In this document: positions 2,547-6,677 of the stretch, piece by piece
Layout of the letters: the number at the start of each line of letters is the position of its first letter
Position numbering within the stretch: position 1 is the stretch's first letter
Program-made: the position numbers and the translations under genes
Assembly: GCA_016840695.1 (NCBI GenBank)
Contig: JAEORV010000008.1
Span: forward strand, 1-13,874
Direction: 5' to 3'
Source: Promethearchaeota archaeon
Lineage (GTDB): Archaea; Asgardarchaeota; Lokiarchaeia; Sigyniarchaeales; SOKP01
DNA length: 13,874 nucleotides
Notes under the pieces: generated by a model
The model's input: only the letters and a program-made list of their open reading frames with translations
Told to the model about the DNA's origin: nothing
Database searches by the model: none

Positions 2547-3449
2547 TTGGTCAAGCTGATTATTGATGCTCATTGTCATATTTGGGAAGAAAGGCTCCTG
2601 TCTGCCGAAATGAAAGAGAAATATATTGATTTGGCGAAGGAATTTGATTGCGATCCTTCCCTCATAATTGACATTAATCACGAAAAGTTACTCCTGCAAA
2701 TGGACGAAGCGGGAATAGACAAGGCGGTATTGCTTGCATTAGATTATGGGACTCTTTTTAAACTAAAAACGTACAAGCTCTACAATAGCTACGTGGCAGA
2801 CATAGTGAGAAAACACCCGGATAGGTTTATTGGATTTGCGGGAATAGATCCTCGAAGGGGTAATAGAGCCATCGAGGAACTCGAAAGATGCGTGAAGATG
2901 GGACTAAAAGGTGTTAAATTATGGCCACTAACGGGATTTTTTCCCGATAATCCGGAATTTTATCCGTTTTACGAACACATCGAAGAGTTGGGCTTGACAA
3001 TCTTATGCCATACTGGTTCGAGTCCTCCAGGAACGTACATGAAATATAATAGACCCGCGCATATCGATACCATTGCCGTGGATTTTCCAACGATCAAGAT
3101 CATAATGGCTCATGTCGGCGTTCCTTGGCACAACGAAGCAATCTCTGTCGCAAAAAAGAACGAAAACGTGTTCTTTGACATTTCTTCATTACAAGTTGCC
3201 TATAAAAACGCTCCCTTTTTTTTCTATCAAACGCTCGTTGAGGCTAAGATGAAGTGTGGAGTGGAAAAAATACTTTTTGGGTCTGATTGGCCGTTATTCG
3301 TACCTCACATATCTCAAAAGGAATGGGTTCACGCAATAAAGAACTTGAAAATTCCAGAACCAATGAAATCATTGGGCTTTCCAGCCTTTTCTGACGAGGA
3401 AAAAACAATGATTCTAGGAGGTAATGCGGCTAAAATACTTAGTATTTAA
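2547..3449 (+). CDS. Amidohydrolase-2 family metal-dependent hydrolase or decarboxylase
   Basis: A 300-residue TIM-barrel enzyme of the amidohydrolase-related family (PF04909/COG2159), which includes ACMSD-type decarboxylases and lactone hydrolases. The metal-binding HxH is at H9/H11 (DAHCHIW). Further metal or catalytic positions are H155 (LCHTG), H189 (MAHVG) and D247 (FGSDWP); the family's GVKLWP segment is at 122-127. The C-terminal GGNAAKIL (291-298) is the usual closing signature. There is no signal peptide or membrane segment, so it is cytoplasmic. The start is TTG at 2547: it begins directly at the first barrel strand (VKLIIDAHCH), and there is no in-frame ATG nearby upstream. No clear Shine-Dalgarno precedes it. 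It has its own promoter and ends 10 bases from the convergent methyltransferase gene, so it is probably monocistronic. The substrate cannot be inferred; no pathway neighbours are present. Confidence 0.85.
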   Translation: MVKLIIDAHCHIWEERLLSAEMKEKYIDLAKEFDCDPSLIIDINHEKLLLQMDEAGIDKAVLLALDYGTLFKLKTYKLYNSYVADIVRKHPDRFIGFAGIDPRRGNRAIEELERCVKMGLKGVKLWPLTGFFPDNPEFYPFYEHIEELGLTILCHTGSSPPGTYMKYNRPAHIDTIAVDFPTIKIIMAHVGVPWHNEAISVAKKNENVFFDISSLQVAYKNAPFFFYQTLVEAKMKCGVEKILFGSDWPLFVPHISQKEWVHAIKNLKIPEPMKSLGFPAFSDEEKTMILGGNAAKILSI

Positions 3450-3459
3450 AAAAAAGGTT

Positions 3460-4530
3460 TTAAAGCATTTCCTTAATTGATTTAGCGAGAGATACAGCCA
3501 TTAAGGGAGGGACGGCGTTTCCCACTTGTTTGTATTTCTGATTCAAACTTCCTTTAAACACGTAATCGTCTGGAAATGATTGTAACCTCGCAGCTTCGCG
3601 AACTGAGATCGCTCTATCTTGAATTGGGTGGATAAAACGCCCTGGAGCACTGATACACCCGCAATTCCCCGTAATGGTATCAGCAGGTTTATCCAAGTGT
3701 AACCGTCCGTATATGTTTGGATATCCGCTCTTGAGTTGAAATTCTTTGGGTAAAGAAGCGTGATTTTCACCTGGTTTAATGTGCGATATTCGTTCCCTCA
3801 CGACCTTACCATGATTTGGAGCAAAGTGATTACTCAATTTTCTTGAGTTCTTCCTCAAATACTTCTGATAGCTGGTTTTCGGGGGAGATATGTAATCTAA
3901 AGTCATTTCATCCCGACATTTTTTCCTGAAAGGAGGGAGATCTAAGATGTCAGAAATCGCGTCTTTCACTAAATGAGAATTATTCCCATTTTCTTTATGA
4001 AGTTTAATTACTTTAGAATTGCCTTTGAATCCGATGAAGAAAACGCGCTTTCTTTTTTGGGGGACTCTATGATCTAGCGCGCGCATTTTTTCTACTTGAC
4101 AAGAGTAATTTATGTCTTGATACATTTTTTTTATCTTCTTTACTACTCCCCCATTATCCATTGATAAAATACCCGGAACGTTTTCCATTACAAAGAATTC
4201 AGGTTGAAAGAAATCTACCCACTTTATGAAGTAAAAAATCATTGTATTACGAGGATCATTGATATTTCGATTCCCAACGGAAGAATATCCTTGACAGGGG
4301 GGTCCACCAATAATTCCATCAATTTCTTTATTATTGAGGTGTTTATGTGCAATCGCCTCGCAATTTATTAATGTTATATCTTTGTTCAAACAAGTGGAGT
4401 CTTGATTATTGTGTTTATACGTTTCGCAATACACTTTCTCAAGCTCGACAGAAAGAACGATTTGAAAATTCGCTTGTTTAAACCCGAGAGACAAGCCTCC
4501 AGCTCCAGAAAAAATATCAATGATCTTCAT
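3460..4530 (-). CDS. DNA (cytosine-5-)-methyltransferase
   Basis: Transfers a methyl group from S-adenosylmethionine to C5 of cytosine within a short DNA target. The 356-residue protein has the conserved motifs in the standard order. Motif I (AdoMet) is DIFSGAGGLSLGF (5-17); motif IV is GGPPCQGYS with catalytic Cys79; motif VI is ENVPG with Glu116. Motif VIII is QKRKR (158-162), followed by a target-recognition region at about 170-290; motif IX is REAARLQSFPDDY (311-323) and motif X is QVGNAVPP (335-342). All catalytic residues are intact and the length is normal for a single-target enzyme. The recognition sequence cannot be read from the protein. It is transcribed divergently from a T/G-type mismatch glycosylase with 62 bases between start codons, and no endonuclease gene is in the window. 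The ATG at 4530 is the only reasonable start, placing motif I at residue 5. No Shine-Dalgarno is visible, so the message may be leaderless or short-leadered. Confidence 0.95.
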   Translation of the reverse strand: MKIIDIFSGAGGLSLGFKQANFQIVLSVELEKVYCETYKHNNQDSTCLNKDITLINCEAIAHKHLNNKEIDGIIGGPPCQGYSSVGNRNINDPRNTMIFYFIKWVDFFQPEFFVMENVPGILSMDNGGVVKKIKKMYQDINYSCQVEKMRALDHRVPQKRKRVFFIGFKGNSKVIKLHKENGNNSHLVKDAISDILDLPPFRKKCRDEMTLDYISPPKTSYQKYLRKNSRKLSNHFAPNHGKVVRERISHIKPGENHASLPKEFQLKSGYPNIYGRLHLDKPADTITGNCGCISAPGRFIHPIQDRAISVREAARLQSFPDDYVFKGSLNQKYKQVGNAVPPLMAVSLAKSIKEML

Positions 4531-4533
4531 GTG

Positions 4534-4570
4534 TCTATATATAGAAGTATAATTTGGGAGTTAATAAATA
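4534..4570. promoter_or_regulatory. Interleaved divergent promoters of the methyltransferase and glycosylase genes
   Basis: A 12-base perfect palindrome TCTATATATAGA (4534-4545) is a good TATA box for the rightward glycosylase gene: start expected near 4566, leader about 27 bases. On the other strand, TTATTTATTAA (complement of 4560-4570) is a TATA box for the leftward methyltransferase: start expected near 4540, leader about 10 bases. Each box therefore lies on the predicted start point of the other promoter. This is predicted from spacing only. Confidence 0.45.
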
Positions 4571-4592
4571 ATACGTTTGACTTAATACACTA

Positions 4593-5240
4593 ATGACTGG
4601 AGAGAAGAAATATTCTGTCGTTCGAGAGAATCTTTTAGAATGGTACGACGAAAACAAGCGAGAATATCCATGGAGAAAAACTACAAGTCTTTTCCAGATT
4701 TTAATCACGGAAATCTTACTCCAGAAAACGATTGCAAGTAATGTGAATAACCTTTATGACGATTTTTTTAAAAAATATAAGGATTTTACTGCAATAAATA
4801 ATGCAAATATCAAGTCCCTTCAATTAGATATCAAGAGTTTAGGATTATCTAACAAGCGTTCAAAAATCTTGAAAAGCTTGAGCGAGATGATTATCTCGAA
4901 GTTTAATGGTAAAATACCCGAAGATCCGATGGTGTTAAAAGAAATCAATGGAATTGCAGAGTACGTGAGTAATGCGTATGCTTGCTTTGGCTTGAACCAT
5001 CGAACGCTCTTTCACGATGTAAACATAAAAAGAATTATTGAAAGAGTGTTTAAAATACCCATTAATACCAAGAGGAACGAGCTTATCAACGAGCAATTAT
5101 ACATGCTACTACCAGACGACGATTCAAAGCATTTTTATTGGGCTTTACTCGATTTTGGAAGCAATATCTGCGCCAAGAAAAACCCAAAATGCCAAATATG
5201 CCCCATTTCTGATTATTGCCATTATTTCTTTACCAGTTAG
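4593..5240 (+). CDS. Iron-sulfur HhH-GPD DNA mismatch glycosylase, probable T/G-specific (Mig.MthI-like)
   Basis: A 215-residue DNA repair enzyme of the endonuclease III/MutY superfamily. It begins with the MutY/Mig-type LLEWYDENKREYPWRK and has catalytic-pocket Glu40 in ITEILLQKT. The helix-hairpin-helix is at about 116-132 (EINGIAEYVSNAYA), with Tyr124 where Mig.MthI has its active-site Tyr and MutY has Ser. Catalytic Asp142 lies in FHDVNIKRI. The [4Fe-4S] site is C193, C200, C203 and C209 (C-X6-C-X2-C-X5-C). The segment KSLGLSNKR (81-89) closely matches Mig.MthI as I recall it. It lacks the C-terminal 8-oxoguanine-sensing domain that lengthens MutY to about 350 residues. Together with the divergent cytosine-C5 methyltransferase, this points to removal of T from T:G mismatches arising by 5-methylcytosine deamination. 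ATG 4593 is the start; no Shine-Dalgarno is evident. The alternative is a truncated MutY, judged less likely because of Tyr124 and Ala48. Confidence 0.85.
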   Translation: MTGEKKYSVVRENLLEWYDENKREYPWRKTTSLFQILITEILLQKTIASNVNNLYDDFFKKYKDFTAINNANIKSLQLDIKSLGLSNKRSKILKSLSEMIISKFNGKIPEDPMVLKEINGIAEYVSNAYACFGLNHRTLFHDVNIKRIIERVFKIPINTKRNELINEQLYMLLPDDDSKHFYWALLDFGSNICAKKNPKCQICPISDYCHYFFTS

Positions 5241-5348: not shown

Positions 5349-6677
5349 TTGAGTAAAAAATTAGAAGAAATCCGTTCAATTTTGATGGAACACCACGATG
5401 AAATAAGCAACGCAATACCTTTAATTGCTTCAGAAAACGTTACAAGCCCCGCTGTGAACGAAGCAATCGTTTCCGACTTTTCCCACCGATATGCTGAAGG
5501 ATGGGTAGGTCAGCGCGTGTACGCAGGATGCAAGTTCATAGATAAAGTGGAGCAAATATGTATTGACCTTACTAAGGAGTATTTTAATTGTTGTTTTGCC
5601 GATGTACGTCCTGTTTCTGGAGTCATGGCTAACTTGGTCTTGTATAATGCTTTTACTTCCCGGAATAATGGTAAAATGATGGCAATGCCCATACCCAAAG
5701 GAGGACATATAAGTCATGCCCCCTATGAAACGTCCTCTGGACGAAGGATCTACGGAACTGCGGGAACCGTGAGAGGTTTAGAGATAAAATACCTTGCGTT
5801 TGACGAAGAAAATATGAATTTGGACGTGGATGAATCTGCAAAAGCAATAAGGGAATTTGAACCAGAAATGATCTTGTTTGGTGGTTCAGTCTTTTTATTT
5901 CCTCATCCTGTCAAGGAATTAAGCGAAGTTGCTAAGGAGATAGGGGCCTCTGTAGGTTATGATAGCGCTCACGTTGCAGGTTTGATTGGTTCAGGCTATT
6001 TTCAGGATCCATTGAGAGAAGGGGCGGACGCCATGAGCCTCAGTTGCCATAAAACCTTACCAGGACCACAAACAGGAGCAGTAGTTTCTGATAGGGAAGA
6101 TCTAGTCGATGATTTAAAAAATGCGGCCTTTCCATCGTTGTTTAGCAATCATCACTTGCATAATGTTGCGGGTTTTGCTGTTGCACTGACAGAAATGCTT
6201 GAATTTGGAAAAGAATATCATAAAAAAGTAATCGAAAACGCTCAGGCATTTGGAACCGCATTAAACGAGCGAGGATTTAATGTCCTATGTGAACACTTAG
6301 GATTTACGAAATCCCACCAGGTCGTTATTAACATAGTTGACTTTGAGAAAACTGTTGGTTTAGGAGGAGATATCGAACGCTTGCTTGAGGATGCGAATAT
6401 CATAATAAATAGGAACCTCTTACCTTGGGACATAAGAGAAGGAAGACATTACATGAATCCCGGAGGTTTAAGGTTAGGAACCTCTGAAATCACTCGTTTA
6501 GGAATGGGCAAAAGCGAAATGGTGGACATCGCTGAATTCTTCAAGAAATTAATAATTGATCAAAAGGATCCGAAGAAAGTCAGAGAAGAAGTGGCCGAAT
6601 TTCGAAAAAATTTTCAAGAAGTAAAGTATTGTTTTAATACCCCAAATAAGGCTTATGAATATCTGAAATTTTATTAA
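5349..6677 (+). CDS. glyA: Serine hydroxymethyltransferase (archaeal type)
   Basis: A PLP enzyme that interconverts serine and glycine while passing a one-carbon unit to a tetrahydropterin (H4folate or H4methanopterin; which one cannot be read here). It is 442 residues, cytoplasmic. Visible signatures are IPLIASEN with catalytic Glu29, the conserved SHRYAEG (45-51), GGHISH (118-123), and LFGGSVFLFPHPV (176-188), which is typical of archaeal SHMT. GYDSAHVAGLI holds Asp205 (PLP pyridine) and His208, the PLP Schiff-base Lys235 lies in SCHKT, and GLRLGTSE holds Arg374 (substrate carboxylate). The FSNHHLH and GFNVLCEHLGFTKSHQV segments also match archaeal homologues. The residue before His-Lys is Cys233 instead of the usual Thr (THKT). 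The start is TTG: it is the first start codon at the expected N-terminus, with no nearby ATG, and TGATC at 5340-5344 provides a ribosome-binding site. It appears to be a single-gene unit upstream of the rpoD cluster. Confidence 0.93.
   Translation: MSKKLEEIRSILMEHHDEISNAIPLIASENVTSPAVNEAIVSDFSHRYAEGWVGQRVYAGCKFIDKVEQICIDLTKEYFNCCFADVRPVSGVMANLVLYNAFTSRNNGKMMAMPIPKGGHISHAPYETSSGRRIYGTAGTVRGLEIKYLAFDEENMNLDVDESAKAIREFEPEMILFGGSVFLFPHPVKELSEVAKEIGASVGYDSAHVAGLIGSGYFQDPLREGADAMSLSCHKTLPGPQTGAVVSDREDLVDDLKNAAFPSLFSNHHLHNVAGFAVALTEMLEFGKEYHKKVIENAQAFGTALNERGFNVLCEHLGFTKSHQVVINIVDFEKTVGLGGDIERLLEDANIIINRNLLPWDIREGRHYMNPGGLRLGTSEITRLGMGKSEMVDIAEFFKKLIIDQKDPKKVREEVAEFRKNFQEVKYCFNTPNKAYEYLKFY

Follow-up and report, generated by a model that had tools for sequence, protein, structure and literature searches.

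A predicted methylation-and-repair gene pair without a recognised restriction partner in a Lokiarchaeal lineage

Introduction

Why would an archaeon keep a cytosine methyltransferase gene head to head with a probable repair glycosylase gene, with no restriction gene at the locus? The question is raised by a 13,874-nucleotide stretch of DNA from a Promethearchaeota archaeon of the Lokiarchaeia (assembly GCA_016840695.1, contig JAEORV010000008.1, here C547). This whole stretch is called the window, and it belongs to a genome of 2.68 Mb in 558 contigs that is 74% complete. The answer favoured here, with good confidence, is a two-gene Asgard module that works in the manner of Dcm and Vsr of E. coli, in which repair would fall to a Mig-type glycosylase and the methyltransferase has no restriction partner at the locus.

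5-Methylcytosine is mutagenic. In the proposed scheme, the methyltransferase would probably methylate the C5 position of cytosine at one short chromosomal motif, and deamination of the methylated base would leave T opposite G. The Mig-type glycosylase would probably remove that T, as well as U opposite G, and base-excision repair would then restore C. This reading is carried by the two genes and their active-site residues, a conserved divergent neighbourhood, purifying selection, the lack of a recognised restriction gene, and a wide linkage that includes gene fusions. From these we infer that the glycosylase acts on T:G, that the methyltransferase does methylate DNA, and that the mark serves the host epigenetically rather than in defence.

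The divergent gene pair

The module occupies positions 3460 to 5240 of the window:

3460..4530, minus strand: solitary C5-cytosine DNA methyltransferase, 356 aa, ATG start, catalytic Cys79 at 4294-4296
3616..3843, minus strand: probable target-recognition core of the methyltransferase, residues 230-305, conservation 0.81, the highest of six blocks
4531..4592: intergenic region between the divergent starts, 62 bases, presumably holding both promoters
4593..5240, plus strand: predicted Mig-type helix-hairpin-helix (HhH) glycosylase with an iron-sulfur (Fe-S) motif, 215 aa, ATG start; Glu40, Ala48, Tyr124, Asp142, Trp183 and Cys193/200/203/209

An earlier sequence-only reading had described an intact C5 methyltransferase, 62 bases away from a divergent, short Fe-S HhH glycosylase that carries Glu40, Tyr124 and Asp142 and lacks the MutY C-terminal domain. 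The open reading frame (ORF) coordinates, the alignments and the domain searches all bear this description out. PF00145 spans residues 1-353 of the 356 in the methyltransferase (E 3.9e-73), and Cys79, within GGPPCQG, aligns together with the other conserved blocks in 24 relatives. The glycosylase matches HhH-GPD (E 4.5e-13) and the EndIII Fe-S motif for a 4Fe-4S cluster, and its chain ends six residues past the last cysteine, so no MutY C-terminal domain is present. Named relatives of both proteins come from Candidatus Lokiarchaeota and other Promethearchaeota.

The glycosylase resembles Mig.MthI

By sequence, the closest solved relative of the glycosylase in a PDB comparison is Mig.MthI at 136 bits, against 82 bits for MutY. 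The two proteins share 33% identity over 210 positions, and Glu40, Tyr124, Asp142 and the four cysteines align with Glu42, Tyr126, Asp144 and the four cysteines of Mig.MthI. These three active-site residues and Ala48, the counterpart of Mig Ala50, are invariant in the 16 tabulated orthologues. Residue roles follow the available part of PMC2714593, which includes the adenine-recognition pair Val45/Gln182 of MutY; the window protein lacks this pair and has Ala48 and Trp183 instead. Together, these features indicate that the glycosylase is probably a Mig-type T:G enzyme.

The likeness is not complete. The position of Leu187 in Mig.MthI is tryptophan (Trp183) in the window protein and in 15 other orthologues, and tryptophan also appears there in three of seven other methyltransferase-linked relatives. 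The enzyme is therefore expected to work like Mig with a pocket that is not identical, and Leu187 appears, as far as shown, to be a feature of one enzyme rather than a family-defining one. Just before the catalytic Tyr (window positions 4947-4964), most proteins of the clade read NGIA, as against PG[VI]G in other Mig and MutY proteins; one clade protein, P0120, reads KGIG.

The same genome encodes two further relatives. One is a separate, clusterless MutY-like protein of 305 aa (L002, G000:C529:1331-1879; 200.8 bits to 8uuc), in which Asn and Glu align at the usual Tyr and Asp positions. The other is an Nth-like paralogue with the catalytic lysine.

The methyltransferase and its recognition region

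Residues 230-305 of the methyltransferase probably form the core of the recognition region, since they lie between motifs VIII and IX. Across 25 sequences the remaining five blocks score 0.64, 0.74, 0.69, 0.54 and 0.78 (C-terminal). Outside the clade, the nearest matches to this region come from ANME-1, Thermoprotei and Methanomicrobia loci (42-45%). Two of the nearest outside loci have GHKL-type ATPase genes close by, which suggests no known motif.

Two possible origins were considered and set aside. The best structural match of the methyltransferase is DNMT1, and kinship was not adopted on that basis, given that an Asgard-eukaryote DNMT link lacks robust support according to the available part of PMC12344493. 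A viral origin was rejected because the viral collection holds no close relative, only three at 30-31% identity.

Conservation of the pair in the phylum

Orthologues were collected from 227 genomes of the phylum with cut-offs of E < 1e-78 for the glycosylase and E < 1e-130 for the methyltransferase. Each gene has orthologues in 16 genomes (18 loci for the methyltransferase), and 14 genomes have both. The two genes are adjacent and divergent in 12 of these 14: the window's genome, G098 and ten genomes of genus g8. With starts taken from the longest ORFs, the intergenic gaps run from 62 to 135 bases, apart from one of 629. The recurrence of the divergent orthologous pair in 11 other genomes makes the window pair more than a chance arrangement. 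In G131 and G146 the two orthologues lie on separate contigs and not near contig ends, and in the methyltransferase-only genomes G096 and G144 the contig stops where the glycosylase would be expected.

The surroundings of the pair differ between genera. In genus g8 it occupies one shared site, with neighbours that include a Ras-family GTPase and a small RING-finger protein; at one such locus these are L064:10135-10683 and the 108-aa L064:7297-7623. In genus g1, with the pairs of the window and G098, it precedes a serine hydroxymethyltransferase gene and a polymerase and ribosomal protein cluster. The 12 pairs share no third gene within 1.5 kb. The distances of one gene correlate with those of the other (Mantel r 0.77 for the 12 pairs and 0.59 for the ten of one genus).

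Linkage across the family and other lineages

The window's family (65 genomes) has 31 near-full C5 methyltransferase loci. A Mig-type gene (18 loci) or a Vsr gene (3 loci) lies within 2 kb at 21 of them, and 23 have one within 5 kb. This count omits six rows under the Pfam cut-off and nine fragments that cover fewer than 200 of 324 profile positions; one of these fragments adjoins a Mig-type gene. The window's genome itself has a second C5 methyltransferase gene on contig C416 (L204:1080-2409), directly after a Vsr gene (79.7 bits, cut-off 27); the L204 stretch ends inside this methyltransferase. Of the three near-full methyltransferase loci in G098, two are paired with a Mig-type gene and the other with Vsr; a third Mig-type gene has a methyltransferase fragment beside it.

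A wider sample of the glycosylase family came from a GTDB scan with one peptide pattern (ending LQ[KR]T), from which 80 of 113 confirmed loci were kept; C5 methyltransferases were found with a hidden Markov model built from 63 sequences. A C5 methyltransferase lies within 1.5 kb at 39 of the 80 loci, namely 10 of 14 orthologues and 29 of 66 others. Two Ignavibacteriales loci carry both domains in one ORF, complete at 664 aa in L159:2146-4140 and running off the contig in L181:3262-4842. Cyanobacterial and haloarchaeal members have no linked C5 methyltransferase among the matches listed, so linkage is no rule of the whole glycosylase family. At L160:6675-8702 and L168:2917-4959, methyltransferase-glycosylase pairs lie near GHKL-type ATPase genes (HATPase_c_3), and L160 also has a PLD/SNF2 helicase; these pairs may possibly belong to a further defence system.

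Search for a restriction enzyme

Two genes outside the module frame the pair:

2547..3449, plus strand: amidohydrolase (PF04909, E 2.2e-45)
5349..6677, plus strand: serine hydroxymethyltransferase (PF00464, E 2.2e-69; NF000586 above cut-off)

Ten bases separate the end of the amidohydrolase gene from the methyltransferase gene, and 108 bases separate the glycosylase gene from the start of the serine hydroxymethyltransferase gene. A restriction gene therefore cannot fit at the window locus, as the sequence-only reading had judged from the tight flanks, and no endonuclease gene stands beside the methyltransferase; this absence is a property of the locus within an incomplete genome. Further neighbours are a coiled protein, with a DUF7121 match just under cut-off, and, by eye, a lysyl-tRNA synthetase ORF and an RNA polymerase subunit and ribosomal protein cluster downstream of the serine hydroxymethyltransferase gene.

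The other pairs agree with the window. For the 107 proteins encoded less than 4 kb from the 12 pairs, PADLOC matched 25 families, none of them a type II restriction family; the neighbours were ORFs taken by a mechanical rule, in order of decreasing length down to a floor of 70 or 80 aa, which misses small genes. The matches it did give were to BrxP (7), JetC (5), LmuB (4), CasR (3), mad2, Csx1 and Cas12f (1 each) and others. By Pfam the mad2 match is a GCD14-family tRNA methyltransferase, the Cas12f matches fit an IS605-type protein, those of the JetC and CasR matches that were traced are weak, and the ones to BrxP and LmuB are also weak. The Csx1 match, in one neighbour, has an E-value of 4.7e-37.

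Distant pairs gave a different picture in the same scan. It covered 134 of 140 neighbours (six long proteins excluded) and the best 25 of 271 and 25 of 184 families, and the matches listed include REase_II models with at most six members each and seven of EcoRII-C. In L163 and L177 the gene order is methyltransferase, glycosylase, EcoRII-C enzyme. EcoRII-C was found in none of the 65 genomes of the window's family, in a search that matched no control genome either and counts for little. According to the available part of PMC10609329, type II restriction enzymes are difficult to identify from sequence, so absent matches in other genomes are weaker evidence than the window's lack of space.

Selection and mosaic divergence

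Ratios of nonsynonymous to synonymous divergence (dN/dS) are 0.10-0.23 for the methyltransferase and 0.21-0.29 for the glycosylase (six pairs each), which indicates purifying selection on both genes. With the shared neighbours at the site, this fits poorly with a decaying immunity remnant, one of the two roles that the sequence-only reading had left for the methylation. Three features together, namely the missing restriction gene, the fixed site and the purifying selection, speak for a mark that serves the host rather than defence.

The methyltransferase gene also has an uneven history. Between G139 and G147, synonymous divergence (dS) is 0.16 for the glycosylase, 0.22 and 0.35 for two flanking genes, and 0.65 for the methyltransferase. 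Along the mosaic methyltransferase gene METHYLTRANSFERASE, dS in the same comparison starts at 0.25, rises to 0.8-1.1 in the middle, falls to 0.34 over codons 240-310 (roughly residues 220-290 of the window's methyltransferase) and ends at 0.75. Two other genome pairs repeat this pattern, and two closer pairs lack the excess. The block pattern suggests that part of the gene was exchanged in place with a diverged copy; G139, G147, G146 and G131 have methyltransferase copies away from the site. Read together, block conservation and dS suggest that the target was kept while other parts of the gene were exchanged. The mosaic loci are L072, L074, L077, L078 and L079, with dS low at the start and in the presumed recognition region and high between.

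The glycosylase without its neighbour

Several observations weigh against a strict form of the favoured reading. The orthologous glycosylase stands at the g8 site without the methyltransferase in G131, G133, G134 and G146, and neither G133 (100% complete) nor G134 (89%) has any C5 methyltransferase match. In the window's family, 6 of 26 Mig-type genes have no C5 methyltransferase within 5 kb; four of these six are the g8-site orthologues, and another, in G140, lies near a contig end. The lone glycosylases of G133, G134 and G146 show dN/dS of 0.18-0.25 (three comparisons), and purifying selection there means that the gene has work without this neighbour. That work is plausibly the repair of U:G and of spontaneous T:G mismatches.

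The four genomes group together in a flanking-gene tree (100/99), which suggests a single loss of the methyltransferase; in the weakly supported glycosylase tree, G131 falls apart from the other three. The term "dedicated", which the sequence-only reading applied to the glycosylase, is thus too strong, and the enzyme probably also performs general T:G and U:G repair. What stands of the proposed methylation-plus-repair module is its core, backed by the likeness to Mig, the conserved pair and the linkage; the strict tie of glycosylase to methyltransferase does not stand.

A test of 104 palindromic motifs in seven genomes with the methyltransferase and five without gave best p values of 0.0044 and 0.0048, near the chance minimum of about 0.01, so no methylation motif is claimed. 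In genus g8, the median ratio of observed to expected CpG (CpG o/e) is 0.92 where any Mig-type gene is present (14 genomes) and 0.74 where none is (six); the 13 sampled carriers of the orthologous glycosylase range from 0.87 to 1.22, and the six genomes that have neither Mig-type gene nor methyltransferase from 0.60 to 0.87. In g8 genomes without the orthologue, homologues of flanking gene c3 reach no more than 41% identity, as against 50-83% in the carrier branch. The genomes without it thus seem to be one side branch, and the CpG difference amounts in effect to one phylogenetic contrast. In genus g7 the medians do not differ (0.66 in two genomes with a Mig-type gene, 0.65 in eight without). 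The window alone has a CpG o/e of 1.10; pooled CpG tests included G000, whose own value is invalid with three of its four stretches masked as N, and are not counted as evidence.

Alternative explanations

The lone genes lend some weight to the idea that the glycosylase is a general T:G and U:G repair enzyme whose place beside the methyltransferase is a historical relic without present function, and the higher CpG o/e of g8 genomes that carry it, in effect a single contrast, points the same way. This remains unlikely, because the two genes co-occur nearly one to one (14 of 16 each way), because linkages in other lineages take different arrangements and include fusions, and because the family's other methyltransferases adjoin other Mig-type genes or Vsr. 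A restriction-modification system whose restriction enzyme has its gene elsewhere or belongs to an unrecognised type, with the glycosylase guarding methylated sites, is rather improbable. It would suit an enzyme class that is difficult to detect, and distant relatives do sit in complete systems: L163 and L177 with EcoRII-C, pFV1 with an NgoPII-family enzyme, and pCALKR01, itself divergent, with a PLD-domain enzyme. Set against it are the 107 neighbours with no type II model, the 12 neighbourhoods with no common third gene, and the minimal free space in the window.

There is little to commend a truncated MutY, acting on A opposite 8-oxoguanine (8-oxoG) and placed by chance beside an unrelated methyltransferase. 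The best NCBIfam model for the glycosylase is indeed mutY, at 139.6 bits but under the cut-off of 286.5, and MutY structures tie with Mig in the fold comparison. The protein nevertheless lacks both the C-terminal 8-oxoG domain and the Val/Gln pair, Mig outscores MutY by 54 bits when sequences are compared with the PDB, a further MutY-like protein is encoded in the genome, and the adjacency recurs in 12 genomes. Least credible is a writer-eraser pair for reversible marking, in which the glycosylase would remove 5-methylcytosine itself, as in plants. The 5-methylcytosine glycosylases of the ROS1/DME type have a catalytic lysine in the HhH, and the window enzyme has Tyr124 at that place.

Significance

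The two-gene module, if it works as proposed, has consequences beyond this locus. A repair enzyme kept beside an orphan methyltransferase implies a mark worth its cost, and Asgard archaea are close relatives of eukaryotes. A bolder and more tentative proposal is that Lokiarchaeia use 5-methylcytosine at a fixed motif as their own stable mark, with a thymine glycosylase to guard it. It would be a prokaryotic parallel of DNMT with TDG/MBD4 at one site, with a recognition region conserved even though other parts of the methyltransferase were exchanged. One genus offers a natural experiment, with both genes at the site in some genomes and the glycosylase alone in others. The window's genome, moreover, would hold two solutions to T:G repair, Mig and Vsr, each by its own methyltransferase.

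Comparison with known systems

Parts of this arrangement are already known, namely Mig beside restriction-modification on pFV1 and a persistent archaeal orphan methyltransferase. The latter is HG2, described in section 3.5 of PMC10609329 as a persistent orphan m5C methyltransferase of Crenarchaeota with the target CCWGG; the window's enzyme is likened to it by description only, as an archaeal orphan retained across a lineage. The main text of that survey, in its available part, does not contain the word "glycosylase" and tabulates its single Lokiarchaeota genome without an m5C gene. No work on a methyltransferase-Mig pair in Asgard archaea appears among the matches listed (titles and abstracts of papers with open-licence full text), and the available parts of PMC12707154 and PMC8307549 hold nothing on it. 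The combination that seems to be new is a pair of methyltransferase and Mig genes that lacks a restriction gene and is conserved within a Lokiarchaeal lineage.

Plasmid pFV1 of Methanothermobacter (NC_001336.1), the comparison drawn in the sequence-only reading, does carry mig near a C5 methyltransferase gene and an NgoPII-family restriction enzyme gene. Its two genes also lie on opposite strands, yet about 1.4 kb apart, with the restriction enzyme gene and a further ORF between them. The window's pair, unlike that of the plasmid, lies beside chromosomal housekeeping genes, and its glycosylase shares the Glu, Ala, Tyr, Asp and cysteines of Mig.MthI but not Leu187. The two methyltransferases share 32% identity, with a poor alignment across the recognition region, so a common target is unlikely. 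Plasmid pCALKR01 of Caldicellulosiruptor (NC_014719.1) comes closer in layout, with divergent methyltransferase and glycosylase genes 118 bases apart (annotated genes). It differs in having an adjoining PLD-domain restriction enzyme, and its methyltransferase is 26% identical to that of the window.

In function the likeness is to Dcm and Vsr of E. coli, where a solitary C5 methyltransferase is accompanied by an enzyme for repair of the T:G product of deamination, without a restriction enzyme. The window pair likewise joins a solitary C5 methyltransferase to a predicted T:G repair enzyme, with no restriction gene at the locus. Vsr is an endonuclease, whereas the window's repair enzyme is a glycosylase, and the window's genome has a Vsr of its own by another methyltransferase. 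For that reason, the pair is best said to work like Dcm-Vsr rather than to be one.

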